Assembly: GCA_029820295.1 (NCBI GenBank)
Contig: JALGVA010000023.1
Coordinates: forward strand, 1-45,833
DNA: 45,833 bases
Source: Candidatus Zipacnadia bacterium
GTDB taxonomy: Bacteria; Armatimonadota; Zipacnadia; Zipacnadales; UBA5352
Direction: 5' to 3'
This document shows positions 9,704-45,833 of this stretch, one piece after another. Both the position numbers and the translations under genes were made by a program. The number at the start of each line of letters is the position of its first letter. The stretch's first letter is position 1. The notes under the pieces are model-generated. The model searched no databases. It had not been told where the DNA came from and worked only from the letters and a program-made list of their open reading frames with translations.

Positions 9704-11788
9704 ATGACCCCGGAGCAGTACTTCGCCCGCAAGCGCAAGGTCCACCTCGACATGCACCTGCCCGAGGATGCCCCCGACATGTTCGAGCGCTTCGACGCTG
9801 AGCAGTACGTGCGCACCCTCACCGACGCGCACGTCAACTCCGTCACCATCTTCGCGCATTGCCACCACGGCAACTGCTACTACGATACCGCCGTCGGCCA
9901 CAAGCACTCGCGGCTGAGCTTCGACTACGTGCGTGAGGTGGCGACCCAGTGCCGTCGCCAGGACGTGGCGGTCATGGCCTACATCTCCTGCGCGTGGAAC
10001 CATCGCGCCGGCGTGGAACACCCGGAGTGGACCCAGCGCGACGCCATGGGCCAGCCCCGCCCGCACCCGCGCTTCTGGTGGTGGATGTGCCTCAACTCGC
10101 CCTACGGCGAATTCATCCGCCAGATGACCCGCGAACTCGCCGAGGGCTACCCCATCGATGGCCTGTGGTACGACATCACCTATGTTGCCCCGCCCGCCTG
10201 CTACTGCGACTGCTGCCGTGAGATCTTCCGCGAACGCCACGGCATCGAGATGCCCGTCGATCCGCCGCCCGGGAGCGCGCAGGCGCGCATGCTCTACGAG
10301 TTCCGTATCGCCACCGAGGCCGACTTCCGCGCCGGCCTGGCCGAACTGATCAAGTCCATCAACCCCGACCTGCTCATAAGCTGGAACCACGCGGGCGATG
10401 TCACCCAGTGTTACCTCGACAACGACGTCCGCTCAGACATCCTGTTCCGCGAGGCGCACACGCCCGAGGACTGGCTCCCTGGCTTCCAGGCCCGGTGGTT
10501 CCAGCACTTTGACATGCCATATGAATGCTGTACGTCGCGCTTTCATTACGGTGGATGGTCGAGTTTCTCATATAAAAGTGCTGAAAAGTTGCATATTGAG
10601 GCGGCAACCGGGCTGGCCCACGGCGGAATCGTGGACATCGGCGACCAGGCGTACCACGACGGCACCCTCGACGCTGCGGCCTATCGGCTCATTGGCGGCG
10701 TCTACGAACGCGCCCGGAGCATCGAGCCCTGGTGCGCGGACACGCGCAGCGTCCCCAACATCGCCGTCCTGCACTCATCGCGCACCCATCACCTCGCCCA
10801 ATGGCTGGAGGGGCACGCCCTGCGCCGCCCGCTGGTCAGCGTCTTCGGCGCCGCCCGCGTCTTGAGTGACGCCGGCCGCCACTTCGACATCATCTCCCAG
10901 CGCGCCCTCGACCGCCTCCCGGACTACCACGCGCTGCTCGTGCCCGACCAGCTCGTGCTGACCGACCACGAAGTCGCCCTCCTGCGTGACTACGTCGTTT
11001 CCGGCGGCGCGGTGATCGCCGCGTACCGCTGCGGCATGCGCGACCAGGATGGGGCCGAGGTCTCCCCCACCTTCCTGCGCGAGGTGTGCGGCGTCGAGCC
11101 CGTGCGCTTCGCCGACTACTCCGTCGGCTACGTCTCCGGCCTGCGCTTCGCGGTCGATGCCCCCGACGCTCCCCTCGTCTTCCGCAGTCCCGGCGACGCG
11201 GGCGCCCCCATCGCCATCCCGGCGCTGGAGTGCGCGCCGATCTCGGCCGAGGTGCTCGCCGATCTCGAACATCCGATCTATGAACGCACCCCGGAGCACT
11301 TCTATGCCGCCAACAACCCGCCGCCCGCGGGCCCCTCCGGCTTCGGCGCGGTCTTCCTCAACCGCCTGGGAGACGGCGCCGCCGTCTACTTCCCCTTCGA
11401 CCTCTTCCGCTTCTTCCAGCTCGACACGTATCCGCCCCTGCGCAATATCGCCATCGCCATGCTCGATCGCGTCGCCCCGGTTCAGGAGGCCCTCGTGGAC
11501 GCGCCCGCGCAAGTCGAGGTCGTCCTGCGCCGGCGCGCCAACACACGCTTCGTACACCTTATCAACTACGCCAACCAGCGGTTCGGCCAGGGCTTCAGCC
11601 CCGTCGTAGTCGAGGATATCATCCCTGTCCGGGACATCCCCGTCCGCCTCCGCGGCGAGGCTATCGCCGTGATTGAGCGGCCCGCCGCGCGCCCCATCCC
11701 CTTTTCGGTCGAGCGCGGCTTCACCAGCTTCGCTCTCCCCCGCCTGGACCGGCACGCCATCGTGGAGATCCAGCTCGCGGCGCGCTGA
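9704..11788 (+). CDS. GHL6-like glycosidase with beta-galactosidase trimerisation-type domain
   Basis: This 694-aa protein has no signal peptide and is probably cytoplasmic. Residues ~1-260 look like a TIM-barrel hypothetical glycosyl hydrolase (GHL6-type): VHLDMHLPEDA near the start, NSVTIFAHCHHGNCYYDT, VAVMAYISCAWNHRAG, then PIDGLWYDITYVAPPACYCD. The Asp of WYD is a candidate catalytic residue and a cysteine cluster (CYCDCC) follows. Residues ~370-560 resemble a beta-galactosidase trimerisation/class-I glutamine-amidotransferase-like fold (DYHALLVPDQLVLTDHEVAL, RDYVVSGGAVIAAYRCGMRD). The C-terminal ~120 residues are beta-rich. It probably acts on oligosaccharides imported after extracellular cleavage by the neighbouring secreted enzymes. 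Bases 10500-10610 are markedly AT-rich with rare codons compared with the rest of the gene. The 1.5 kb downstream is non-coding. Confidence 0.75.
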   Translation: MTPEQYFARKRKVHLDMHLPEDAPDMFERFDAEQYVRTLTDAHVNSVTIFAHCHHGNCYYDTAVGHKHSRLSFDYVREVATQCRRQDVAVMAYISCAWNHRAGVEHPEWTQRDAMGQPRPHPRFWWWMCLNSPYGEFIRQMTRELAEGYPIDGLWYDITYVAPPACYCDCCREIFRERHGIEMPVDPPPGSAQARMLYEFRIATEADFRAGLAELIKSINPDLLISWNHAGDVTQCYLDNDVRSDILFREAHTPEDWLPGFQARWFQHFDMPYECCTSRFHYGGWSSFSYKSAEKLHIEAATGLAHGGIVDIGDQAYHDGTLDAAAYRLIGGVYERARSIEPWCADTRSVPNIAVLHSSRTHHLAQWLEGHALRRPLVSVFGAARVLSDAGRHFDIISQRALDRLPDYHALLVPDQLVLTDHEVALLRDYVVSGGAVIAAYRCGMRDQDGAEVSPTFLREVCGVEPVRFADYSVGYVSGLRFAVDAPDAPLVFRSPGDAGAPIAIPALECAPISAEVLADLEHPIYERTPEHFYAANNPPPAGPSGFGAVFLNRLGDGAAVYFPFDLFRFFQLDTYPPLRNIAIAMLDRVAPVQEALVDAPAQVEVVLRRRANTRFVHLINYANQRFGQGFSPVVVEDIIPVRDIPVRLRGEAIAVIERPAARPIPFSVERGFTSFALPRLDRHAIVEIQLAAR

Positions 11789-32923: not shown

Positions 32924-34528
32924 TCAGTCGATGATGCTGACGGCGCCGTCGAGGCTGATTCTGACCGAGGAGACAGCGCCGCCAATACGGTTGCCCTGCG
33001 CGTCGAAGACGGCGGCGAAGGCGCCATCGACCACAAGGGCGTCAGCATCGAGGCGCTGCGTGACGGTGGCGGGCCCGGCGCCGGCGACCGAGGGGTAGGC
33101 GGCGTCCTCCAGCGCGAGCACAGACGCCAGCCTGCCGGTGATAGCGTTGAAGTACATGACGATCGCGCCGGTTCCGGGGTCGAACTGCCAGACGCTCGGC
33201 TCCACGCCGCGGCCGGCGTCCTGGCGGACGTTGGCGATCTCGTCGGCCTCGACGACCACGCCGGCCATCTGGTAGCCGGGGCCGTCCAGGGGCGTCACCT
33301 CAAGCGATCCGGCGTCGGCGGGGGTGACGCCGATGCGCACGAAGTTCATGTAGCCGTTGGGGTCGAAGGCCACCACGCCGGCGTAGGCGTCGGACCAGAC
33401 GGGGTCGAGGCCGCCCCAGTCCGTCCCCGGGCCGCCGATGAGCACGCGTTCGACCTGCAGGGTCGGGCTGCCCAGGTCGGCCCAGCCATCCCAGTCGGAG
33501 TTACTGGTGAGGCGGAAGTCGCGGCGCGGCAGGTCGGCCTGCTGGATGATGAGTTCGCGGTTGCCCGAGTAGACGCGCTCGAAGGCGATCCACCTGCCGT
33601 CCGTTGACCACGACGGCCTCTCGTCCGAGCCGGCGCGGCGGCTGAAGTTGGCCTGGTTGGTGCCGGCCGAGGTCATGATGAAGATGTCGGTGCCCCAGCC
33701 CTGGGCGGTGTAGGCGATGCGCTGCGCCTGCGGGTCGAAGACGGGCTCGCCATCGACCGAGGAGTTGTTGGTGAGGCGCGTCTGGCTGGTGCCGTCCTCC
33801 TGCATCTTGTAGATCTCGGCGATGCCGTCGCGGTTGCTCACGAACAGGATCTGGGGGGCGGCCAGCGCACGCGACCAGTACGGGCTGTCATCCCCGGCGG
33901 CGTGGTTGGTCAGGTTGACCTCGGAGGAGCCGTCGGCGGTCGCCTTCCAGACGTCCCAGTTCCCTCGCAGTGAGCCGTAGGCGACCTCCCTGCCGTCTGG
34001 GGACCAGGTGGCGTAGCGGTCGAGGTAACTGTTGTTGGTGACGGCGTAAGGGCTGGAGCCGTCGGCGTTGGTCACGATGATCTCGGCATCCTGGGCGGGC
34101 CAGGTGCGGTCGAACACGATCCTGGTGCCGTCCGGCGACCACTCCGGGCGGTACTCGTTGGCGGTGTTGTCGGTGATCTGGACGGCGTTACTGCCGTCGA
34201 GGTCACAGACCCAGATGTTCCACTCTGGGCCGCCACGGTCGCTGGAGAACACGATGCGGTCAAGGAGCGCCTGTGAGGCCAGGTAGTCGATGCGCGCGCC
34301 GTGCAGCGCCACGAAGGAGCATGGGCCGAGGCTGCCCGTGGGGAGGGCGTCGGCCCGGAAGCCCGCGGTGCTCGCGGGCCTGACCAGCATCGGGCCGACC
34401 TGCACGGCGTCCCCCACGGTGGGGCCATCGGGGGCTTCGGGGGCCGGGGCGGGGGTGATGCCGCCGCCGCAGCCGGCCAGCATCAGCGCGAGAGCCACGA
34501 TCACTGCTGAGCAGTACCATCGTGCCAT
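32924..34528 (-). CDS. Tandem propeller lipoprotein 1 (last gene of the array)
   Basis: This 534-aa lipoprotein has the signal WYCSAVIVALALMLAGC with lipobox LAGC. A conserved segment follows (~45-95: VGPMLVRPASTAGF, then IDYLASQALLDRIVF). Six PD40/TolB-like blades lie at ~95-350; each ends like DLDGSNAVQITDN and begins like EWSPDGTRIVFDR. The C-terminal region (~350-534) starts LGSPTLQVERVLIGG and includes DWGGLDPVWSDAYAGVVAF, NVRQDAGRG and FAAVFDAQGNRIGG. TolB-like propellers bind partners; no enzyme motif is seen. It is the most diverged in the LGSPT-to-GG motif (VERVLIGGPGTDWGG). ATG 34528 has GGAAGGTGA upstream; 32 nt from the preceding gene. Confidence 0.85.
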   Translation of the reverse strand: MARWYCSAVIVALALMLAGCGGGITPAPAPEAPDGPTVGDAVQVGPMLVRPASTAGFRADALPTGSLGPCSFVALHGARIDYLASQALLDRIVFSSDRGGPEWNIWVCDLDGSNAVQITDNTANEYRPEWSPDGTRIVFDRTWPAQDAEIIVTNADGSSPYAVTNNSYLDRYATWSPDGREVAYGSLRGNWDVWKATADGSSEVNLTNHAAGDDSPYWSRALAAPQILFVSNRDGIAEIYKMQEDGTSQTRLTNNSSVDGEPVFDPQAQRIAYTAQGWGTDIFIMTSAGTNQANFSRRAGSDERPSWSTDGRWIAFERVYSGNRELIIQQADLPRRDFRLTSNSDWDGWADLGSPTLQVERVLIGGPGTDWGGLDPVWSDAYAGVVAFDPNGYMNFVRIGVTPADAGSLEVTPLDGPGYQMAGVVVEADEIANVRQDAGRGVEPSVWQFDPGTGAIVMYFNAITGRLASVLALEDAAYPSVAGAGPATVTQRLDADALVVDGAFAAVFDAQGNRIGGAVSSVRISLDGAVSIID

Positions 34529-34560
34529 CCGGGTCACCTTCCCTGTTGCGCCTGCTGTGT

Positions 34561-36177
34561 TCAGCGCAGCACCGAGAGCGTGGCGGTGTCGTCCATCGCC
34601 ACGGCCGCGGCGCCGTTGGGGGCGAGGTTGCGTCCCTGCGCGTCGAACACCGCCGAGAACGGGCCTTCACTGACGAGCGCGCGCGCCTCGAGGCGCTGGG
34701 TGACGGGATCGTGCTGGCCCGCCGCCGAGGGGTAGGCGGTGTCGTCAAGGGCCAACACCGCGGTAAGCTTGCCGGTGCAGGCGTCGAAGTAGAGTACGGC
34801 GGCGGTGACGCCGAGGGGGTCCAGGTCCCACACGGTGGGCTCGCGGCCGCGGCCGGCGTCCTGGCGCAGGTTCACGATCCTGGTGGCCTCGACCAGCACG
34901 CCTGCGGGGGCGCCGCCGCTAATCGCGGTGTGGCTCAGCGGCGAGATGTCCAGGCTGCCCAGGTGCGCCGGGGAGATGCCGATGCGCACGAAGTTGCAGT
35001 AGCCGTGAGAGTCGATGGCGGCGACGCCGGCGTAGGCCGACGCCCAGATCGGGTCGTTGCCGCCCCAGTCGGAGCCGGCGGGGCCGATGAGCACGCGGTC
35101 GGTCTGCATGGTGGGGCCGCCCAGGTCCGGGTCCTCCTCCCACGCGCTGTTGTGGGTCAGGCGGAACTTGGCCCATGGGCTGTCGGTCTGCTGGAGCACG
35201 AGTTCGTCGGCGCTCCCGGACGCATCAGACTGGTAGCAGATGAAGCGGCCGTCGGACGACCAGCACGGACGCTTCTGAATCCCCGGGGACGCGGAGAAGT
35301 TGTACGGGGTGCCGGAGCCGATGTGGCCTACGAAGACGTCGGGGTGGACGTCGTAGGCCATCCGGTTGTGGGCCGGGTGGTATCGGGGGCAGCGCTCCTT
35401 GGTCGCAGTATTTGTGCGCTGCACCTGGTTGCTGCCGTCCGCGTTCATCTCATAGATGTCGCCGGAGCCGGTCCGAGCGCTGCAGAACAGGATCGTCGGG
35501 TCGTCGAGCCTCGGCGACCAGTCGGGTTCGGTGTCGTCGCTGGGGTGGTTGCTGAGGTTGGTGGCTCCGCTGCCGTCGAGGAAGGCGGAGAAGATCTCGC
35601 TGTTCCCGCTCAGGTCGCGCTCGAAGGCGAGCCTGCGCCCCGCGGGGCCGAAGGTGGGGCTGTCCTCGTCGTTGGCGGTGTTGGTGACCGCGTAGACCCC
35701 CGAGCCGTCGGCGTTGATCATCATGATCTCGGCATCCTGGCCCGACCACGCCCGCACGAAGGCGATCTTCGTGCCATCAGGCGACCAGCGGGGGCAGTAC
35801 TCATAGGCGGCATTGTTGGTGAGCTGCACGCGGTTGGAGCCATCGAGGTTGCACACCCAGAGGTCAGGTGACATGTCCCCGTAGCCGAAGACGATGCGGT
35901 CGAGCATGGCCTGGGAGGCCAGGTACTCGATGGTGGAGCCGTGCAGGGCCACGAGGCTGACCTCGCCGTCGGTGGGGATATCCTCGGCGACGAAGCCGGC
36001 GGCCGAGGCGGTGCGGATGACCAGCGGGCCGACCTCGTGAGTCACCAGGTCGCCGCCCGTAGGTGGACCGGGCGATGGCGACGGCGTGGAGACCAGCGGG
36101 CTTTCGCCCGAACCACAGCCGATCAGGGCGATGGTCAGGGCGGACAGGGCGATGAGCAGGGACGTGGTGCGCAACAT
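34561..36177 (-). CDS. Tandem propeller lipoprotein 2
   Basis: The 538-aa paralogue has signal LLIALSALTIALIGC (lipobox LIGC). EVGPLVIRTASAAGFVAEDI and IEYLASQAMLDRIVFGYGDM follow. Blades include SGQDAEIMMINADGSGVYAV and WSPDGTKIAFVR. The C-terminal region has LGGPTMQTDRVLIGPAGS, DWGGNDPIWASAYAGVAAID and NLRQDAGRGREPTVWDL, ending FSAVFDAQGRNLAP. It is closest to protein 3 (both have TASAAGFVAEDIPTDGEVSL and SPWAKF-LTHNS), suggesting a recent duplication. One substitution in the LGSPT motif (LGGPT). The start is ATG 36177, before the lipoprotein signal; longer in-frame extension overlaps gene 3 and is unlikely. Confidence 0.85.
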   Translation of the reverse strand: MLRTTSLLIALSALTIALIGCGSGESPLVSTPSPSPGPPTGGDLVTHEVGPLVIRTASAAGFVAEDIPTDGEVSLVALHGSTIEYLASQAMLDRIVFGYGDMSPDLWVCNLDGSNRVQLTNNAAYEYCPRWSPDGTKIAFVRAWSGQDAEIMMINADGSGVYAVTNTANDEDSPTFGPAGRRLAFERDLSGNSEIFSAFLDGSGATNLSNHPSDDTEPDWSPRLDDPTILFCSARTGSGDIYEMNADGSNQVQRTNTATKERCPRYHPAHNRMAYDVHPDVFVGHIGSGTPYNFSASPGIQKRPCWSSDGRFICYQSDASGSADELVLQQTDSPWAKFRLTHNSAWEEDPDLGGPTMQTDRVLIGPAGSDWGGNDPIWASAYAGVAAIDSHGYCNFVRIGISPAHLGSLDISPLSHTAISGGAPAGVLVEATRIVNLRQDAGRGREPTVWDLDPLGVTAAVLYFDACTGKLTAVLALDDTAYPSAAGQHDPVTQRLEARALVSEGPFSAVFDAQGRNLAPNGAAAVAMDDTATLSVLR

Positions 36178-36208
36178 CGTGATCACTCCCGGGACGGCGT
36201 GCGGCGGA

Positions 36209-37813
36209 TCAGTTGGCGTTGACGGCGCCATCGGCGCCGATGGTAACGCGCGACGATGCGCCGGCGACGCGAGTGCCCGACGAGTCGAAGACGGCGGCGA
36301 AGCTGCCGGTGACGACAAGCGAGTCGCCATCGGCAGATTGGGTGACGCCGGCCGGGGCTCCGGCGGCGGACGGGTAGGTGGAGTCGCGCAGCGGCAGCAC
36401 CAGGATGAGCTTGCCGGTCCGCACGTTGAAGTAGAGGATGGCCGCGGTCACAGTCTGGGCGCTGAAGTCCCAGAGCGTGGGCACGCGCTCGCGGCCGCCG
36501 TCCTCGCGCAGGTTGACGATGGCGGCGGCCTCGACCACTACGCCGGCGAGGCCAAGGCCGCAGGTGACAGCCGGGGAAAGCGGCGAGATGGCCAGTGTTT
36601 CGACATCGGCGGCGTGGATGCCGATGCGCACGAAGCTGCGGTAGCCGTCGTAGTCGATGGCCACGATGCCGGCGTAGGCCGACGCCCAGACCGGGTCGTT
36701 GCCGCCCCAGTCGGAGCCGGGTGGGCCGATAAGCACGCGGTCGGTCTGCATGGTGGGGCTGCCCAGGTCAGGGCAGATGTCGTTGAAGCTGTTGTGGGTC
36801 AGGCCGAACTTGGCCCACGGGCTCTCGGTCTCCTGGAGCACCAGTTCATGGTCGCCCCCGCCCGCAGTAGATTCGTAGCAGATGAAGCGGCCATCGGACG
36901 ACCAGCACGGCCTCATCTGGCCCCCGCGCGACGCCGAGAAGTCGTAGGGTGTCCCCGAGCCGATGTTGGTGACGAATACGTCGGCCGCATTGTCGTAAGC
37001 CATACGGTTGTGCCGGGGATGGAAGCTGGGCGAGAACTCGCCGTCCGGCGTGGTTGTCCGCTGCACCTGGTTGCTGCCATCGGCGTTCATCTCGTAGATG
37101 TCGCTGGGGAGCGTCCGCTCGCTGACGAACAGGATGGTCGGGTCGTCAAGCGTGGGCGACCAGTCGGGGTCGTAGTCGTCGCTGGGGTGCGCGCTGAGAT
37201 TGTCCGCGCCGCTGCCGTCGAGGAAGGTCGAGTAGACCTCGCGGTTCCCGCCGAGGTCCCGGTCGAAGGCGATCCTCCGCCCTGCCGGTCCGAAGGTTGG
37301 GTGGTGTTCGTTGAGCGCGTTGCTGGTGACCGCGTAGACTCCCGAGCCGTCGGCGTCCATGATCATGATCTCGGAGTCCTGGCCCGACCACGTCCGCTCG
37401 AAGGCGATCCTCGTGCCATCGGGCGACCAGCAGGGGGCCATTTCCTCGGCGGCGTTGTCGGTGAGCTTGACCCGGTTGGAGCCGTCGAGGTTGCAGACCC
37501 AGATGTCGGGTGAGGCACCGCCGTAGGAGAAGACGATGCGGTCGAGCAGAGCGGTGGAGGCGAGGTAATTGATGGTAGAGCCGTACAGCGCCACGAGGCT
37601 GACCTCGCCGTCGGTGGGGATATCCTCGGCGACGAAGCCGGCGGCCGACGCGGTGCGGACGACCAGCGGGCCGACCTCGTACTCGGCCGCGCCGGCGCCC
37701 GGGCCGGGCGCGGGTGGTTCGGGCAGCGGTGAGATGGAAGCGACGTCACCGCCGCAGCCGTAGATCAGGGTGACCGCCCCCAGGAGACAGACTACGGTCG
37801 CATGTCTGGGCAT
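36209..37813 (-). CDS. Tandem propeller lipoprotein 3
   Basis: The 534-aa paralogue has signal VVCLLGAVTLIYGC (lipobox IYGC). EVGPLVVRTASAAGFVAEDI and INYLASTALLDRIVFSYGGA follow, nearly the same as protein 2. Blades include WSPDGTRIAFERTWSGQDSE. The C-terminal region has LGSPTMQTDRVLIGPPGS, DWGGNDPVWASAYAGIVAID, NLREDGGRERVPTLWDF (DGGRER instead of DAGRGE) and FAAVFDSSGTRVAG. The degenerate blade 5 (YDNAADVFVTNIGSGTPYDF) is shared only with protein 2. The start is ATG 37813; gap to gene 4 is 36 nt. Confidence 0.85.
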   Translation of the reverse strand: MPRHATVVCLLGAVTLIYGCGGDVASISPLPEPPAPGPGAGAAEYEVGPLVVRTASAAGFVAEDIPTDGEVSLVALYGSTINYLASTALLDRIVFSYGGASPDIWVCNLDGSNRVKLTDNAAEEMAPCWSPDGTRIAFERTWSGQDSEIMIMDADGSGVYAVTSNALNEHHPTFGPAGRRIAFDRDLGGNREVYSTFLDGSGADNLSAHPSDDYDPDWSPTLDDPTILFVSERTLPSDIYEMNADGSNQVQRTTTPDGEFSPSFHPRHNRMAYDNAADVFVTNIGSGTPYDFSASRGGQMRPCWSSDGRFICYESTAGGGDHELVLQETESPWAKFGLTHNSFNDICPDLGSPTMQTDRVLIGPPGSDWGGNDPVWASAYAGIVAIDYDGYRSFVRIGIHAADVETLAISPLSPAVTCGLGLAGVVVEAAAIVNLREDGGRERVPTLWDFSAQTVTAAILYFNVRTGKLILVLPLRDSTYPSAAGAPAGVTQSADGDSLVVTGSFAAVFDSSGTRVAGASSRVTIGADGAVNAN

Positions 37814-37849
37814 TGCTCGGTACCTCCGTGACGTCGGGTTGACGGCAGG

Positions 37850-39460
37850 TCACTGCAGCACGACCGGTGGGCCGGCCGGGTCGATGGCCACCTGGCTGGC
37901 GGCGCCGGCGACCCGGTTACCGGCGGCATCGAAGACGGCGGAGAAGCTCCCTCGGGCGATGGCGGTGTCGCCCCGGGTCGTGTAGCTGACCAGGTCGCGC
38001 CCGCCGGCGCCGGCCGGGAGCACGGTGTCCTCCGAGGCCAGCGCCGCGACTACCTTGCCGGTCATCGGGTGGAAGTGCAGGATGACCGCGCCGGGGGCGG
38101 GCGTGCCGAACTGCCAGACCGTGGGCGGATTGCCGCGCCCGGCGTCCTCGCGCAGGTTGGCAATGGCATCGGCCTCGACCACGGCCACTGCGAGGATGCG
38201 CGCAACGTCGTCCAGCCCGGTGATGTGCACGGTGTCGGCGTCGGCGGCGGCGACGCCGATGCGTACGAAGTTGTAGTAGCCCACGTAGGTGTAGGAGCAG
38301 ATGCCGGCGTAGGCGCTCGACCAGACCGGATCGGTGCCGCCCCAGTCGGAGCCGTCGGGGCCGATGAGCACCCGGTCGGTCTGCATGGTGGGGCTGCCCA
38401 GGTGGGGGTCGTGCCAGTTGTCAACCCCACTGGTGACCTGGTAGGTCGCGTAGGGCTCGTAGGTCTGCTTGATGAAGATGTGCGGGTGGCCGCCGGTGGT
38501 CTGCTCGTAGACCACCCACTTGCCGTCGCCGGACCACGCCGGGTGGGTCGGCCCCGCCGGGTGCCGGACGAGGGTATGCACGTCTGCACCGATGTTGTCC
38601 ATCACCAGGATGCCCTGGGAGCCGCCCATAATGCCGACGTAGGCGATCTCCTCGGCCTCCGGTCCCCACGCCGGGAGAGTGTCGTTGTTGACGGAGGGGG
38701 ACAGCGCCAGCGGGCCGCTGCCGTCCTCGTTCATGCAGTAGACGTCGTCGTTGCCCGCGCGATTGGTGACGAACAGGATGTCCGGGTCGTCGCCGTCGGG
38801 CGACCAGAAGGGCGTGTAGTCGCCGGCGGCGTGGTTGGTGATGTTGGTCGGGCTCCGGCCGTCGTCGGCCATGATGTAGACCTCGTGGTTGCCGTCGCGA
38901 TCGGCCTGGAAGGCGATTCTGCCGTCATCGGGCGACCACGTCGGGTGCCGATCGGTGGTCGTGTTGCTGGTCAGCGCGGCAGGGCTGGAGCCGTCGGCGT
39001 TGACTACGACGATCTCCTTGTCGGAGGCCGGCCACCGGCGGCACAGGGCGATGCGGCGGCCGTCCCGCGACCACTGCGGGTCCTCCTCGTAAGCAGTGCT
39101 CGAGGTGATGCGGGTGAGCCCCGAGCCGTCGAGGTTGCACACCCAGACGTTCTGGCCGGGCCCCACCCCCCGGTCGCTGACCATGACGACGCGGTCGAGC
39201 AGCGCCTGGGACGCGAGGTAGTTGATGCGAGCGCCGTAGAACCCGACGACCGAGCAGGCGCCCCACTCGTTGGGGATGTTCTCGACCTTGAAGCCGGCGG
39301 TGCTGGCGGGGCGGACGAGCATGGGGCCGACCGAGAGGACATCGGCCCCCACGCCCGGCGAGCCGGGTGTGGGCGCAGGTCCATCGCCACCTCCGCCACA
39401 TCCGACCACGAGGGAGGCGAGTGCGGCTATGAACAGGAGCATCAGGTGGCGGCTGTGCAT
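37850..39460 (-). CDS. Tandem propeller lipoprotein 4
   Basis: The 536-aa paralogue has signal LMLLFIAALASLVVGC (lipobox VVGC) and a Gly/Pro-rich spacer. SVGPMLVRPASTAGF and INYLASQALLDRVVMVSDRG follow. Blades include WPASDKEIVVVNADGSSPAA and FWSPDGDDPDILFVTNRAG. The C-terminal region has LGSPTMQTDRVLIGPDGS, DWGGTDPVWSSAYAGICSYT, NLREDAGRGNPPTVWQF and FSAVFDAAGNRVAG. The start is ATG 39460, with GAGGTGA upstream. Confidence 0.85.
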   Translation of the reverse strand: MHSRHLMLLFIAALASLVVGCGGGGDGPAPTPGSPGVGADVLSVGPMLVRPASTAGFKVENIPNEWGACSVVGFYGARINYLASQALLDRVVMVSDRGVGPGQNVWVCNLDGSGLTRITSSTAYEEDPQWSRDGRRIALCRRWPASDKEIVVVNADGSSPAALTSNTTTDRHPTWSPDDGRIAFQADRDGNHEVYIMADDGRSPTNITNHAAGDYTPFWSPDGDDPDILFVTNRAGNDDVYCMNEDGSGPLALSPSVNNDTLPAWGPEAEEIAYVGIMGGSQGILVMDNIGADVHTLVRHPAGPTHPAWSGDGKWVVYEQTTGGHPHIFIKQTYEPYATYQVTSGVDNWHDPHLGSPTMQTDRVLIGPDGSDWGGTDPVWSSAYAGICSYTYVGYYNFVRIGVAAADADTVHITGLDDVARILAVAVVEADAIANLREDAGRGNPPTVWQFGTPAPGAVILHFHPMTGKVVAALASEDTVLPAGAGGRDLVSYTTRGDTAIARGSFSAVFDAAGNRVAGAASQVAIDPAGPPVVLQ

Positions 39461-39498
39461 GACAGGTTCACCTCGTTGGTGCGGGCCGTGATGGGCGG

Positions 39499-41121
39499 TC
39501 ACTGCACGTCCTGCGGCTGGCCGTTGGCGCCGAAGACGACGCGCGTGGCGCCGTCGGGCGCGAGGTTGTGGCCCCGGGCGTCATAGACGGCTGCGAAGCT
39601 GCCCGCGGCGACCGTGCGGCCGGCCTCGACGCAGTGCGTGATGGCGGGAGCAGCGCCGTCGCCCGCCGGCAGCGCGGAGTCGCGCAGGACGATGACCCCG
39701 ACCAGCTTGCCGGTCTCGTAGTAGAAGTAGGTGGCGATCGCGGTTGGGTAGGGCGGTGCGAAGGCCCACACGGTGGGCAGCTTCCCCCGACCGGCATCCT
39801 CGCGCAGGTTGGCGATCGCCCGCGCCTCGATCACGCCGGCATTGAGGCCCTGTCCGGGGTCGGGCAGGGGCGTGACCTCGACCGTGTCGGCATCCGCCGC
39901 GGCGACCCCGATGCGCACGAAGTTGAGGTAGCCCTCATGGTTGAAGGCACAGATGCCCGCGTAGGCGTCGGACCAGAGCGGGTCCTTGCCGCCCCAGTCA
40001 GAGCCCGCCGGGCCGATGAGCACGCGCTCGGTCTGCACGGTGGGGCTGCCCAGGTGCGGGTTGCGGTGGTTGCGCGGGCCTGAGGTGACCTTGAAGGTGG
40101 CGTAGGGGGCGCCGGTCTGCTTCAGGAAGATGTGCATGCTGGGTCCACGGCTGTCGTCGAAGGCCACGAACTTGCCATCCGAGGACCAGCAGGGGTTGTA
40201 CTGGTTGTCAGGGTGGTGGACGATGCTGTGCTGGTCGTTGCCCTGCGCGTCCATGGCGAAGATGTCGCTGCCCCACCACGAGCGCTCGTAGACGATGTTG
40301 TCACCATCGGCGTCCCACATCGGCTTGAACTCGGAGTAAGCGGTGGTGGTGAGGGCGGTCGGGCTGGCGCCGTCCTCGTCCATGACCCACAGGTCCCGAC
40401 CACCGGCGCGCGTGGACGAGAACACGATCTTGGGGTCCTCCAGGTTGGGGGACCAGCAGGGGTAGTCATCGAGGGCCGCGTTGTTGCTCAGGTTGGTCTG
40501 ACCGCTGCCGTTGGCGAACATCCAGAAGACTTCCCAGTTGCCCGACGGGTTGGTCTCGTAGACCAGTGCGCTGCCGTCGGCCGACCAGTGGGGGTAGCCG
40601 TCGGTGCGCGAGTTGTTGGTCAACGCCGTCGGACTGGAGCCGTCGGCGTTGATGCGGATGATCTCCTTATCGGAGGCGGGCCATGCCCGGGCAAAGGCGA
40701 TGCGGGTGCCGTCGGGAGACCACGCGGGCTCACTTTCCGCGGCGTCGTTGACTGTGACCTGGGTCAGGCCGGAGCCGTCCAGGTTGCACACCCAGATGTC
40801 GAAGTCGAGGTTGCCGTCGCGGTCGCTGGCGAAGACGATGCGATCGAGCAGCGCCGTGGAGGCGAGATAGTCGATCTTCGCGCCGTAGAGCGCCACCACT
40901 GAGGCCATGCTGAGCGGGTTCGGCAGGCTCTGCGTGGTGAAGCCGGTGGCGGCGGCGGTGCGGACGACCAGGGGGCCGACCTCGTACTCCGCGGCGCCGG
41001 CGCCGCCGCCCGGTGGTGGCGGTGGGGGGGCGCCGGCGCCATCGCCGCCACCACCTCCACACCCGGCGAGCGTGATCGCAAGCGCCGCGACGAGGAGCGC
41101 GGCCAGGTTAGTACGGTGCAT
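39499..41121 (-). CDS. Tandem propeller lipoprotein 5
   Basis: The 540-aa paralogue has signal LAALLVAALAITLAGC (lipobox LAGC), followed by a Gly run and a Pro run, typical of a flexible lipoprotein tether. EVGPLVVRTAAATGF and IDYLASTALLDRIVFASDRD follow. Blades include WPASDKEIIRINADGSSPTA, which is almost the same as in protein 4. The C-terminal region has LGSPTVQTERVLIGPAGS, DWGGKDPLWSDAYAGICAFN, NLREDAGRGKLPTVWAF and FAAVYDARGHNLAP. The gap to gene 6 is 60 nt, the largest in the array. Confidence 0.85.
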   Translation of the reverse strand: MHRTNLAALLVAALAITLAGCGGGGGDGAGAPPPPPPGGGAGAAEYEVGPLVVRTAAATGFTTQSLPNPLSMASVVALYGAKIDYLASTALLDRIVFASDRDGNLDFDIWVCNLDGSGLTQVTVNDAAESEPAWSPDGTRIAFARAWPASDKEIIRINADGSSPTALTNNSRTDGYPHWSADGSALVYETNPSGNWEVFWMFANGSGQTNLSNNAALDDYPCWSPNLEDPKIVFSSTRAGGRDLWVMDEDGASPTALTTTAYSEFKPMWDADGDNIVYERSWWGSDIFAMDAQGNDQHSIVHHPDNQYNPCWSSDGKFVAFDDSRGPSMHIFLKQTGAPYATFKVTSGPRNHRNPHLGSPTVQTERVLIGPAGSDWGGKDPLWSDAYAGICAFNHEGYLNFVRIGVAAADADTVEVTPLPDPGQGLNAGVIEARAIANLREDAGRGKLPTVWAFAPPYPTAIATYFYYETGKLVGVIVLRDSALPAGDGAAPAITHCVEAGRTVAAGSFAAVYDARGHNLAPDGATRVVFGANGQPQDVQ

Positions 41122-41181
41122 GGCTCTCTCTCCCTCTCGGCGGTCAGGGTTCCTGCGGCTTCTGATTGTGTCCCGGCAGGT

Positions 41182-42801
41182 TCAGCCCCCCACCGCCACG
41201 ACACCGTCGGCTGCGATGGTGACCGATGATGCGGCGCCGGCGATCCTGTTGCCGGATGCGTCGAAGACGGCGCTGAAGCGGCCCTGCAGGACGAGCCGGT
41301 CGCCGTCGGAGCGCTCGGTGACCGCGGCCGCGCGTGCGCCCGCGGCGGAGGAGTAGCCGGTCTCATCAACACACACCACCGACGCCAGCTTACCGGTGCG
41401 GGAACTGAAGTAGAGCAGGGCGGCGCCGGGATCCAGCGGGTCCAGGTCCCAGACGGTGGGCTGACAGCCCCGCCCGGCATCCTGGCGCAGGTTGACGATC
41501 CGGCCGGCCTCGACCAGTACGCCGACGGGCGGGTCGTCCATGGAGATCATCGCGGTATGGGTCAGCGGGGTGATCTCCAGGCTGCCGAGGGCGGCGGTCG
41601 GGACGCCGATGCGCACGAAGTTCAGGTAGCCCGTGTCGCTGTGTGCGGCGATGCCGGCGTAGGCGGAGGTCCAGATGGGGTCGAGGCCACCCCAGTCGGC
41701 GCCGGCGGGCCCGATGAGCACGCGGTCGGTCTGGGCGGTGGGGCTGCCCAGGTGCGGCCAGCCGTCGTTGGCGGCGTCGGTGGTGACGCGGAAGGCGTGG
41801 AACGGCTCGGTGGCCTCCTGCACCCAGATGTCCCAGTTGCCGGCGCGGTTGCTGCGGAAGGCGATCCAGCGGCCATCGCTGGACCACGCGGGCAACTGGT
41901 CCTCGTCGGGATGGTTGCTGAAGTTGCGGAGGTTGTTGCCGCTGCTGGTGGCGACCAGCACCTCGCTGTTGCCGTTGCTGTAGCGCTGCCAGGCGACGTC
42001 GAAGCCGTCCGGGCACCATGTGGGGTTATGATCGTCGTCGGTGGGATCGCCGGTCACGTAGGTCTGGTTGGTGCCATCATGCTCCATGCTCAGGATCTCG
42101 TAGTCGCCGCAGCGGGGGGAGGCGAACAGGATACTGTTGGTGACTGCGTTGAGGCACCAGTCGGGGTCCTCATCGGCTCCGGCGTAGTTCGTCAGGTTGG
42201 TGGGGTGACTGCCGTCGGCGAACATGCAGAAGATCTCCTGGTTCCCCAGGCGGTCGGTCTCGAAGGCGATGCGCCGGCCGTCGGGCGACCAGGTGGGATG
42301 GGTGTCGAGTCCATCGTTGTCGGTGAGCGCCTCGACACCCGCGCCGTTGGCGTTCATGGTCATGATCTCGCGATCGTTGCCGGGCCACTCGCGGTCAAAG
42401 ACGATACGGGTCCCGTCGGGCGACCACTGGGGCAGGTACTCGGCGGCGGTGTTGTTGGTGAGCTGCACCAGATTGGAGCCGTCGAGGTCGCACACCCAGA
42501 CGTCGAAGTAGCCGTCGCGGTTGCTGCTGAACACGATGCGGTCGAGCATGGCCTGGGAGGCGAGGTAGTCGATCTGCGAGCCCCACAGAGCGACGAAGGT
42601 GCAGTGGCCGCCGACCACGGGTACCGGCTCGGCCTTGAAGTGCGCGGTGCTGGCGGGGCGGATCAGCAGCGGCCCCACCTCGACCAGCTCCGCCGCCGGA
42701 TCCCCCGGCGTGCCGGGGTCAGGCAGCGGTGCGGAGCCGCCGCAGCCTGCCAGCACGATCGCCAGGGCGAGCAGCGCGGTCGCGAAGCAGCGTGTGATCA
42801 T
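41182..42801 (-). CDS. Tandem propeller lipoprotein 6
   Basis: The 539-aa paralogue has signal ATALLALAIVLAGC (lipobox LAGC). EVGPLLIRPASTAHF and IDYLASQAMLDRIVFSSNRD follow. Blades include NLVQLTNNTAAEYLPQWSPD and WPGNDREIMTMNANGAGVEA. The C-terminal region has LGSPTAQTDRVLIGPAGA, DWGGLDPIWTSAYAGIAAHS, NLRQDAGRGCQPTVWDL and FSAVFDASGNRIAG. The start is ATG 42801, with GGAGGGTGA upstream; the in-frame extension to 42828 has no signal-like character. Confidence 0.85.
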   Translation of the reverse strand: MITRCFATALLALAIVLAGCGGSAPLPDPGTPGDPAAELVEVGPLLIRPASTAHFKAEPVPVVGGHCTFVALWGSQIDYLASQAMLDRIVFSSNRDGYFDVWVCDLDGSNLVQLTNNTAAEYLPQWSPDGTRIVFDREWPGNDREIMTMNANGAGVEALTDNDGLDTHPTWSPDGRRIAFETDRLGNQEIFCMFADGSHPTNLTNYAGADEDPDWCLNAVTNSILFASPRCGDYEILSMEHDGTNQTYVTGDPTDDDHNPTWCPDGFDVAWQRYSNGNSEVLVATSSGNNLRNFSNHPDEDQLPAWSSDGRWIAFRSNRAGNWDIWVQEATEPFHAFRVTTDAANDGWPHLGSPTAQTDRVLIGPAGADWGGLDPIWTSAYAGIAAHSDTGYLNFVRIGVPTAALGSLEITPLTHTAMISMDDPPVGVLVEAGRIVNLRQDAGRGCQPTVWDLDPLDPGAALLYFSSRTGKLASVVCVDETGYSSAAGARAAAVTERSDGDRLVLQGRFSAVFDASGNRIAGAASSVTIAADGVVAVGG

Positions 42802-42837
42802 CAGTCTCACCCTCCACAGGTCATGCATGTCCCGGGC

Positions 42838-44439
42838 TCACTGGAGCACCGAGATGTCGCCCCCAGCGGCCAGCGCGACCCGCGCCGCGCCGGTGGGGGC
42901 GAGGTTACGGCCGTGCCCGTCGAAGACGGCGCTGAAGACGCCCGCGACCGTGACCACGCCGGCGCCGGCGCTCACGGCCGGGGCGGCGGTGGCGGCGGGG
43001 TAGCTGGCGTCGTCCACCGCGAGCACGGAGACGAGCTTGCCGCTCACCGGGTCGAAGTAGAGCACCGCGGCGCCGGCGTCGAGAGGATCGAGGTCCCAGA
43101 CGGTGGGCTCCTCACCGCGGCCGGCGTCCTCGCGCAGGTTGACGATCTCGTTGGCCTCGACCAGCACGCCCACGGGTGACGAGGTGGACGGGCTGGTGAC
43201 CATCAGCGGTGTGATCTCGAGGCTGCCCAGGTCGGCGGCGTGGAGGCCGATGCGCACGAAGTTGCGGTAGCCGTCGTCATCGAAGGCGCACACGCCGGCG
43301 CAGGCGTTCGCCCAGATGGGGTCGAGGCCGCCCCAATCGGAGCCGGGCGGGCCGATGAGCACGCGCTCGGTCTGCATGGTGGGGCTGCCCAGGTGGGGAT
43401 ACTCATCGAAGGCGGCGTGCGTGGTGACGCGAAAGGCGCGGTACGGGTGGTCGGTCTCCTGCAGCCAGATGTCGTAGTTGCCGGCGCGGTGGCTGTCGAA
43501 GGCGAGCCACCGGCCGTCGCTGGACCAGGCGGGGTTACGGTCGGCGCTGGGGTGGTTGGAGAGGCGGCGTTCGTTGGAGCCGCCCTCGGTGATGTCGAAG
43601 ATGTCATGGTCGCCGGTGCCCACCTGGCGGTCGAAGCCGATGAGGTAGCCGTTGGGGTGCCACGTCGGATGGTAGTCATTCGCGGTGTTGCTGGTGACCG
43701 TGGTGAGGCCCGTGTCGTCGGCGCGCACCGTGTAGATCTCGTAGTCGCCACCGGAGCGGTCGCTGCAGAAGCAGATGCGCGGGTCGGAGGAGTGCGACCA
43801 GTCGGGCCAGCGCTCCGCGGCGGTGGTGGCCGCGAGGTAGTGGGGGGCGCTGCCGTCCGCGTACATCGTGTAGATCTCCCAGTTGAGGCTGCGGTAGCTC
43901 TCGAAGGCGATGCGCCGGCCGTCGGGCGACCAGGTGCCGCTGGTGTCGTCCTGGGTGTTGTCGGTGAGCGCGGTGATTGACGAGCCGTCGGCGTCCATGA
44001 CGATCAGCTCGGCGTCGGCGGCACCCCAGCGACGGTCGAACACGATGCGGGTGCCGTCGGGCGACCACTGAGCGCGGTACTCATCGGCGGCGTTGTTGGT
44101 GAGCTGGGTGAGGCCGGAGCCGTCGAGGTCGCACACCCAGATGTCACTGTAGCCGTCGCGCCTGCTGGTGAAGACGATGCGGTCGAGCAGCGCCTGGGAG
44201 GCGAGGTAGTCGATCTGCGATCCCCACAGGGCGACGAAGGCGCAGCCGCTGGTGATGCGCAGGGGCTCGGCGGTGAAGCCCGCGGCGCTGGCCGGGCGGA
44301 CGAGCATGGGCCCGACCGCCACCAGGTCGGCATCTCCGGCGGCCGGTGGCGCGGGGCCGGGCACCGGCGGCGAGCCGCCGCAGCCCGCCAGCGTGATCGC
44401 CAGCGCGAACAGCCCGGTCGCGAGCAGCCATCTGGTCAT
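42838..44439 (-). CDS. Tandem propeller lipoprotein 7
   Basis: The 533-aa paralogue has signal LLATGLFALAITLAGC (lipobox LAGC). VGPMLVRPASAAGFTAEPL and IDYLASQALLDRIVFTSRRD follow. Blades include LTQLTNNAADEYRAQWSPDG and WSPDGRRIAFESYRSLNWEI. The C-terminal region has LGSPTMQTERVLIGPPGS, DWGGLDPIWANACAGVCAFD (Cys for Tyr in the usual AYAG), NLREDAGRGEEPTVWDL and FSAVFDGHGRNLAP. The start is ATG 44439, with GGAGGGTGA upstream. It is the best candidate for the parent of gene 8 (HNLREDAGRGEEPT and WDLDPL are shared). Confidence 0.85.
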   Translation of the reverse strand: MTRWLLATGLFALAITLAGCGGSPPVPGPAPPAAGDADLVAVGPMLVRPASAAGFTAEPLRITSGCAFVALWGSQIDYLASQALLDRIVFTSRRDGYSDIWVCDLDGSGLTQLTNNAADEYRAQWSPDGTRIVFDRRWGAADAELIVMDADGSSITALTDNTQDDTSGTWSPDGRRIAFESYRSLNWEIYTMYADGSAPHYLAATTAAERWPDWSHSSDPRICFCSDRSGGDYEIYTVRADDTGLTTVTSNTANDYHPTWHPNGYLIGFDRQVGTGDHDIFDITEGGSNERRLSNHPSADRNPAWSSDGRWLAFDSHRAGNYDIWLQETDHPYRAFRVTTHAAFDEYPHLGSPTMQTERVLIGPPGSDWGGLDPIWANACAGVCAFDDDGYRNFVRIGLHAADLGSLEITPLMVTSPSTSSPVGVLVEANEIVNLREDAGRGEEPTVWDLDPLDAGAAVLYFDPVSGKLVSVLAVDDASYPAATAAPAVSAGAGVVTVAGVFSAVFDGHGRNLAPTGAARVALAAGGDISVLQ

Positions 44440-44474
44440 CTCTTTCACCCTCCGCACTGCATGCGTGCTCGACC

Positions 44475-45833
44475 TCAGTCAAGCACTGAGATGCTGCCAT
44501 GTGCTCCCAGCGCGACGCGGGAGGCGCCGCCCCGGGCGAGGTTGCGGCCCTGTGCGTCGAAGACGCCGCTGAAGACGCCGGTGACGATGGTGTCGGCGCC
44601 GTCGGCGCGGGCGTGTACGGCGGGCGCGCCCGTGGCGGCGCTGGGGTACGCGGAGTCATCCACCGCCAGGACCGAGATCAGTTTCCCCGACGCGTCATCG
44701 AAGTAGAGCACGGCCGCGCCGACGTTCAGCGGGTCGAGGTCCCAGAGGGTGGGCTCCTCGCCCCGGCCGGCGTCCTCGCGCAGGTTGACGATGGTGGCCG
44801 CCTCAACCAGCACGCCGACCGGGTTGCCGGAGCCGGAGAAGGCGCTCGGGGCCACCAGGGGCGTGACGTCCAGGCTGCCCACATCGGCGGAGTAGATGCC
44901 GATGCGCACGAAGTTGCGGTAGCCGTCGTTATCGAAGGCGCACACGCCCGCGTAGGCGCTCGACCAGATGGGGTCGAGGCCGCCCCAGTCGGCGCCGGCG
45001 GGCCCGATGAGCACGGGGTAGTTCTCGTTGGCGTAGTGGTCGGTCACGCGGTAGGCGCGATAGGGGGCCTCCGCCTCCTGCAGCCAGATATCGTCATTCC
45101 CGGCGCGGCTGCTGCTGAAGGCGATCCACCTGCCGTCGCTGGACCACGCCGGGGCGTCGTCACCGGCCGGGTGGTTGGACACGCGGTGCTCGTTGGTCCC
45201 GTAGCGGTCCGTGCGGAAGATCTCGCGCTCGCCGGGCATCAGCCACCGGGACATGGCGAGGCAGCAGCCTGTCGGGTGCCAGCTCGGGTAGTAGTCATTA
45301 GTCGTGTTGCTGGTGACGGCCGTCTGGCTGCTGCCGTCCGGCTTCATGGTGTAGACCTCGTAGTCGCCGGTGCGGCCGCTGCAGAAGGCGATGAGGGGCG
45401 TGGACATGGAGGGGGACCAGTCGGGGTACTGGTCGCCGGAGCCGTGGTTGGTCAGGTTCTCGAACCCGCCGCCGCTCTCGTAGCGGGCGCAGATCTCCCA
45501 ATTGCCGGGCTCCATGCTGGCGTAGGCGATGCGCCGGCTGTCGGGGGACCAGGTGGGGTCGGAGTCCTGCTGGGTGTTGTTGGTGAGCGCCTCGATGGCC
45601 GAGCCATCGGCGTCCATGGTGATGATCTCTGGGTCCTGGGCCGGCCAGGTGCGGTCGAAGGCGATACGGGCCCCGTCGGGCGACCACGCGGGCCGGCGCT
45701 CGTCCGCCGCGTTGTCGGTGAGCTTGACGAGGTGCGAGCCGTCGAGGTTACACACCCAGATGTCCGGGGACAGGTTGCCGCGGGCGAACACGATGCGGTC
45801 AAGCATGCCCTGGCAGGCCAGGTACTCGATCTC
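44475..45833 (-). CDS. Tandem propeller lipoprotein 8 (5' end outside window)
   Basis: The last 452 residues are visible; the frame is open at the window edge (EIEYLACQGMLDRIVFARGN), so the signal peptide is outside. All six blades are present (WSPDGARIAFDRTWPAQDPE, then EIITMDADGSAIEALTNN). The C-terminal region lacks 11 residues present in all seven other copies: it reads NYPVLIGPAGADWGG where others read YPHLGSPTMQTERVLIGP. The deletion is in frame (33 nt, junction at 45014/45015), and the rest (NLREDAGRGEEPTLWDL, FSGVFDAQGRNLAR) is intact. It is the most upstream gene seen in the array, and the operon may continue beyond the window. Confidence 0.85.
   Translation of the reverse strand, partial: EIEYLACQGMLDRIVFARGNLSPDIWVCNLDGSHLVKLTDNAADERRPAWSPDGARIAFDRTWPAQDPEIITMDADGSAIEALTNNTQQDSDPTWSPDSRRIAYASMEPGNWEICARYESGGGFENLTNHGSGDQYPDWSPSMSTPLIAFCSGRTGDYEVYTMKPDGSSQTAVTSNTTNDYYPSWHPTGCCLAMSRWLMPGEREIFRTDRYGTNEHRVSNHPAGDDAPAWSSDGRWIAFSSSRAGNDDIWLQEAEAPYRAYRVTDHYANENYPVLIGPAGADWGGLDPIWSSAYAGVCAFDNDGYRNFVRIGIYSADVGSLDVTPLVAPSAFSGSGNPVGVLVEAATIVNLREDAGRGEEPTLWDLDPLNVGAAVLYFDDASGKLISVLAVDDSAYPSAATGAPAVHARADGADTIVTGVFSGVFDAQGRNLARGGASRVALGAHGSISVLD

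Follow-up and report, generated by a model that had tools for sequence, protein, structure and literature searches.

Why should a bacterium need many envelope proteins of one kind? The question is raised by contig JALGVA010000023.1 of a Candidatus Zipacnadia metagenome-assembled genome (MAG), on which eight minus-strand open reading frames (ORFs) run back to back from position 45833 down to 32924 and encode paralogous propeller proteins of lipoprotein type. The window that we analysed is the entire contig (C272 in our numbering, 45,833 bases). We document here the family to which these proteins belong, its predicted propeller fold, its copy number, its tandem layout, its presence in a sister genome and a regional pattern of variation among the copies. 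The explanation that we prefer, tentatively, is that the array, tandem and probably operonic, provides a repertoire of binding lipoproteins anchored in the envelope, with specificity residing in propeller blades 3–6 on a shared base. Pathogens are known to have tandem arrays of paralogous lipoproteins; in the present case, 13 or more copies or parts occur in a lineage of environmental sediments that is known through metagenome bins. The copies, and two further features used below, are as follows.

44475-45833, minus strand: copy g1; truncated at its 5′ end by the edge of the contig; the 11 residues with LGSPTxQTxR are missing; PD40 score 110.4 bits.
42838-44457, minus strand: copy g2; 539 residues; lipoprotein with PD40 propeller and C-terminal domain; the copy used for the structure model.
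41182-42801, minus strand: copy g3; 539 residues from the ATG at 42801.
39499-41121, minus strand: copy g4; 540 residues.
37850-39460, minus strand: copy g5; 536 residues from the ATG at 39460; the longest ORF begins with GTG at 39502.
36209-37813, minus strand: copy g6; 534 residues; its ortholog in the sister genome G001 is C595:7313-8572.
34561-36177, minus strand: copy g7; 538 residues from the ATG at 36177; its ortholog in G001 is C595:4015-5784.
32924-34537, minus strand: copy g8; 537 residues; last gene of the array.
42838-43404, minus strand: C-terminal domain of g2, about 188 residues, an example of the unrecognised domain that ends every copy.
45720-45833, no strand: assembly junction; 114 bases exactly common to the ends of contigs C37 and C212, from which the array continues along two alternative paths.

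The copies in the window are 534–540 residues long, the first being cut at the contig end. With ATG starts the intergenic gaps are 31–60 nucleotides; starts of the longest ORFs give smaller gaps or overlaps. The first-pass annotation, made from the letters alone, had described eight consecutive same-strand paralogs separated by gaps of this size, which the ORF coordinates with ATG starts confirm; position 45833 is where the contig ends, and further copies lie beyond it. Pairwise identity among the paralogs of this genome (in a table that takes in three copies from other contigs) is 41–64%, so they are distinct genes. In total, the genome has 13 places with the C-terminal domain, either copies or parts. 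A promoter and terminator scan found nothing that resembles a promoter and two sites that resemble terminators, both in line with shuffled sequence; it thus says nothing about an operon.

We analysed the N-terminal, propeller and C-terminal parts of these proteins. Each of the 7 visible starts has a Cys after a hydrophobic stretch (xxGC), that of g6 (36209-37813) with Tyr at position −2 of the lipobox; the start of g1 lies outside the window, so its signal peptide is not visible there. The earlier statement that all signal peptides and lipoboxes are intact thus stands for the 7 visible xxGC starts and needs qualifying for g1, which is cut off, and for the Tyr of g6. Outside the window some copies are damaged: on contig C212 of the same genome, one copy has a large internal deletion and another is a fragment at the contig end. 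Among 24 distant family members, a simple pattern picked out a lipoprotein start in 22, at least one of these sites (L052) being possibly a chance match.

The central part of every copy passes the PD40 profile (PF07676), with 45.2–121.3 bits at a Pfam cut-off of 20.9. We modelled the mature g2 protein from an alignment of 24 sequences from the window and named loci, and obtained a predicted structure with a mean predicted local distance difference test (pLDDT) of 88 and a predicted template modelling score (pTM) of 0.82. Residues 40-313 of the model align with TolB at Z 35 (2.3 Å over 268 residues, 16% identity; Z range 31–35 against TolB structures), and long strands at 35-51 and 304-321 bracket the propeller. 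The six-bladed TolB-like propeller read from the letters alone is therefore borne out by the PD40 scores of 8 of 8 copies and the model of one, and we predict the propeller of the array proteins to be of TolB type with six blades.

We rejected the identification of the copies as TolB itself. The two copies tested against TIGR02800 scored 148.4 and 135.5 bits, at an equivalog cut-off of 343.15, and the match covers the propeller part only. The N-terminal domain of TolB is absent, as sequence matches begin at about residue 139-167 of the TolB chain and only about 40 residues precede the propeller. No protein in the whole host genome reaches the TIGR02800 equivalog cut-off, and Pfam, run on a subset of the flanking ORFs, showed none of tolQ, tolR, tolA and pal there. 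TolB-like propellers are abundant in 41 related genomes, but none of these propellers reaches the equivalog cut-off. The likeness to TolB (TIGR02800; Tol-Pal) is thus the six-bladed PD40 propeller; in contrast to TolB, the array proteins have a lipoprotein start and an extra C-terminal domain, lack the N-terminal domain and score far below the equivalog cut-off. They resemble PD40/WD40-like proteins in that all eight exceed the PF07676 cut-off, but PF07676 names the repeat only and their C-terminal domain falls outside it. TolB-type propellers in other architectures, OMP-TolB-like and propeller-only proteins, are described in the accessible part of PMC12204202; according to that part, those proteins bear a Rossmann-like domain or a beta-barrel, whereas the array proteins bear another C-terminal domain.

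That C-terminal region, about 190 residues in the array copies, had been suggested to be a new domain family, and database searches support the suggestion. We found no match to it in Pfam (29 members scanned; best hit anywhere E 0.0071, to PepSY, in one member), in NCBIfam (0 matches for two C-terminal segments) or among Protein Data Bank (PDB) sequences (best E 0.88 and 1.4), and PHROGs gave no known domain. A match to a known domain of described function would have told against a new family; none was obtained. By these sequence comparisons, the region is an unrecognised domain family. Modelled alone, it consists mostly of strands (pLDDT 72.6), and it is predicted better inside the full model than on its own. 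Foldseek on the lone model found nothing at E ≤ 0.001 (best E 0.3). VIA gave at best Z 4.2, with a root-mean-square deviation of 5.8 over 106 residues, to propeller proteins, and weaker rows (Z 2.3–3.0) to RseB, VioE and GerS, which presumably share a LolA-like fold. All of these structural matches are below the tool's meaningful level, so we claim no fold for the domain. From the model, taken without coordinates, we infer that the propeller may be inserted into a single base formed by the C-terminal region together with the first 40 residues at the N terminus. The motifs first noticed in the region are present in the copies, with the exception of the stretch missing from g1. The polar motifs DWGGxDP and REDAGRG are conserved; DWGG and REDAGRG are lost in many distant family members. 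A search by title and the start of the abstract, which most subscription journals fell outside, returned no published description of the array or of the C-terminal domain, and the words propeller, WD40, TolB and lipoprotein are absent from the Zipacnadia class paper (PMC10290634).

To place the array among its relatives, we searched 291 genomes of the phylum. A genus-level profile of the C-terminal domain matches 28 of them and a broader one, built from 29 members, matches 34 (among the better genomes, 23 of 194), the count of 34 taking in two weak matches, G006 and G134 (E about 3e-4), and G005 through a probably mis-binned contig. The domain, unnamed in the libraries searched, is now a defined family in 34 of 291 Armatimonadota genomes. 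Per-genome copy numbers in both of these searches are lower bounds, since no more than 11–12 candidates were scored; a search of 41 genomes, in which all candidates were scored, found 32 without the family. Outside the host genus there are 1–7 matches per genome, usually 1–5, and the single-contig genome G061 has one copy. Short tandem runs occur elsewhere: three genes in G170, four on one contig of G171, and two neighbours each in G078, G018 and G025. PD40 propellers were found in all 10 of the distant members scanned with Pfam (10 of 24). A mobile origin was considered and rejected, viral contigs and plasmids having yielded no relatives. Among named records, those nearest to the C-terminal domain come from Meg22-bin MAGs labelled 'Candidatus Zipacnadia bacterium' and from one MAG of 'candidate division WS1'. 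The array proteins thus belong to an unnamed, phylum-wide lipoprotein family that is greatly expanded in the host genus.

The expansion is seen most clearly in G001, of the same genus, where seven contigs carry 14 ORFs that cover 470 or more of the 491 profile positions, together with 12 further pieces. Relatives with a single copy only would have pointed to an expansion made by assembly; the genus sister holds even more copies. Orthologs of g6 and g7 are recognizable there (support 100/98 and 100/99) in the same order, with one other copy between them. We rejected G005 as a further genus with the family: the dnaA on its contig C81 is 99.7–100% identical to that of the window, while G005 has another dnaA at 77%, so C81 looks mis-binned. 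On contig L042 (JALGUJ010000151.1, Meg22_1214_Bin_167) lie g8, the carboxylesterase gene and a dnaA almost identical to that of the window, in a bin that also has a different dnaA; this contig is probably mis-binned. Near the other dnaA of G005, L160:6612-7736 encodes a 375-residue propeller ORF without the C-terminal domain.

We compared variation by region in 26 copies of the two genus genomes, short-span copies having been left out beforehand. Mean identity is 0.59 in the N-terminal segment and blades 1–2, 0.38 in blades 3–6 and 0.56–0.58 in the C-terminal domain. The two ortholog pairs reverse this pattern, with 0.88 and 0.87 in blades 3–6 and 0.75 and 0.62 in the C-terminal domain. The ratio of nonsynonymous to synonymous substitution (dN/dS, NG86) is 0.28 for g7/C595:4015 and 0.38 for g6/C595:7313, so both genes look kept; the two pairs are under purifying selection. 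Of the 26 C-terminal domains, 21 had their nearest relative within their own genome (shuffle p 0.004), against 13 of the 26 blade 3–6 segments (p 0.53), these p values being a guide only, since the copies are related and their labels are not independent. Same-genome nearest relatives are what would be expected if C-terminal parts were exchanged within a genome. Top loops of the propeller, placed by hand, have a higher entropy than bottom loops (1.89 versus 1.40 bits; permutation p 0.003).

The array continues beyond the window. The host genome (5.63 Mb in 331 contigs, completeness 98.6%, contamination 4.1%) contains two contigs, C37 (8,832 bases) and C212 (3,349 bases), that each begin with exactly the last 114 bases of the window. 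C37 has two further full copies and then the start of the array, with divergent ArsR and thioredoxin genes; C212 has one full copy besides the deleted one and the fragment. The array copy at L002:2038-2976 has an in-frame deletion that starts in the middle of the propeller and reaches the final part of the C-terminal domain. The two upstream paths meet within the coding sequence of g1, which thereby gets two alternative heads, their DNA being 61% identical before the shared 114 bases. In the sister genome, contigs C594 and C167, both with array genes, are also joined by exactly 114 bases, so that the number is most simply the assembler's overlap. The two heads of g1 would reflect a difference between co-occurring strains, or else a stretch that is identical in two copies. 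According to the accessible part of the Zipacnadia class paper (PMC10290634), the Meg22 cores were taken from Guaymas Basin, assembly was done with IDBA-UD, and lipopolysaccharide genes were reported, the bacteria being judged likely gram-negative; the window presumably belongs to that data set. Zipacnadia ranks as a class in the NCBI taxonomy.

The idea of binding variants, raised as one of several possibilities in the first-pass annotation, fits the variation pattern among the copies. Each lipoprotein would be exported and lipid-anchored at the lipobox Cys; a TolB-type propeller would be held on a base made of the N-terminal segment (about 40 residues), blades 1–2 and the C-terminal domain; blades 3–6 would carry the binding specificity of each copy; and the base, common to all copies, would either anchor them or make contact with a shared partner. 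The array may have grown by tandem duplication and been reshuffled by recombination through conserved segments. The copies make a natural series of propellers for mapping the evolution of specificity. A more elaborate version, which we consider doubtful, has the array as a modular set of receptors close to the replication origin of an uncultured lineage, where blades 3–6 store specificity, gene conversion homogenises the base, and strains differ upstream because recombination in the conserved strand of blade 1 swaps heads and changes copy number; co-occurring strains would then carry different upstream stretches of the array. Several points weigh against a binding repertoire. The contrast between blades and C-terminal domain is carried by only two ortholog pairs, and the shuffle test treats related copies as independent. 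Variable loops are usual in propellers, so the contrast in entropy between top and bottom loops is no proof of binding. Near-identical repeats could have misled the assembly into the alternative paths at the contig end, and the scanned flanking ORFs showed no transporter or secretion gene. Finally, the ligand, the common partner, the cell face and co-transcription rest on inference.

Could the copies simply be tandem duplicates of a single-purpose envelope protein, diverging and being lost and gained with no specialised specificity? Dosage and drift of this kind would explain the recurrence of short tandem runs in the phylum (G170, G171, G078, G018, G025), the turnover of copies (the extra gene between the g6 and g7 orthologs in G001, the deleted copy C212c) and the location of the array close to dnaA in both genomes of the genus, a region whose gene dosage is high in growing cells. 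We nevertheless think it unlikely, because the paralogs, at 41–64% identity, are old, their orthologs are under purifying selection, and pure redundancy does not require 87–88% ortholog identity in blades 3–6. A periplasm-facing scaffold, either of subunits of a heteromeric assembly or of TolB-like couplers of the outer membrane to the cell wall where true TolB is missing, seems less probable again: the propeller is of TolB type and the TolB equivalog cut-off is reached in 0 of 41 related genomes, but the TolB N-terminal domain is absent, the family is missing from 32 of 41 genomes, and a copy number that varies from 1 to at least 14 between relatives is hard to square with a fixed stoichiometry.

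We regard it as improbable that the proteins are enzymes in which a catalytic or substrate-binding C-terminal domain follows the propeller and the copies differ in substrate range. PD40 propellers do occur in S9 peptidases and oligogalacturonate lyases (seen as weak Pfam echoes), and the C-terminal domain has the conserved polar motifs DWGGxDP and REDAGRG; however, no hydrolase or lyase domain was matched in the C-terminal part (Pfam, and the NCBIfam segments tested), and in S9 peptidase/DPPIV enzymes an alpha/beta-hydrolase domain comes after the propeller, of which Pfam found none here. The loss of DWGG and REDAGRG in many distant members also means that there is no family-wide catalytic set. 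About as improbable is diversification driven by phages or neighbours, with the copies acting as phage receptors, decoys or immunity-like proteins. Recombining tandem paralogs are known from such loci, for example the esaG immunity genes (as far as the accessible part of PMC9484751 goes), but PADLOC found 0 families in the 3 of 8 copies tested, viral contigs hold no relatives, and no toxin or phage gene lies beside the array among the surrounding ORFs scanned. That a single gene was multiplied by misassembly might be feared in a metagenome bin with contig breaks inside the array. It is hardly credible: the eight copies on one contig differ at 36–59% of residues, which refutes it for these eight, and the sister genome has its own array with two orthologous copies.

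Two known systems resemble the array in layout. The Lpl lipoproteins of Staphylococcus aureus share with it a run of paralogous lipoprotein genes (PMC4470592, accessible part), but the array copies have no Pfam match outside propeller-type families, and organism and envelope differ. The esaG genes, in the part of PMC9484751 available, are likewise non-identical tandem paralogs that recombine through conserved blocks; the array proteins are unrelated to them, in function too, and recombination in the array is suggested by two genomes only.

The surroundings of the array are shared between the window genome and G001, with ArsR, thioredoxin and beta-helix protein genes at the 5′ end and dnaA and dnaN near the 3′ end; in the window, a carboxylesterase gene sits between the array and dnaA/dnaN. 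Genes of the family are near dnaA in G000, G001 and G025, and by gyrA in G001 and G004. Since the association with gyrA is absent in G000 and the order differs in G025, we set the dnaA/gyrA position aside as a functional clue and keep it as an observation only. A possible placement around the replication origin, in differing order, was noted for window positions 27264-30889 and for L099, L103, L097 and L101. The left part of the window has an exact direct repeat of 82 bases, at positions 3062 and 5079, and large proteins with DUF4838, GH2-type and GHL6 domains (5548-8460 and 9704-11788), which form a carbohydrate-active neighbourhood.

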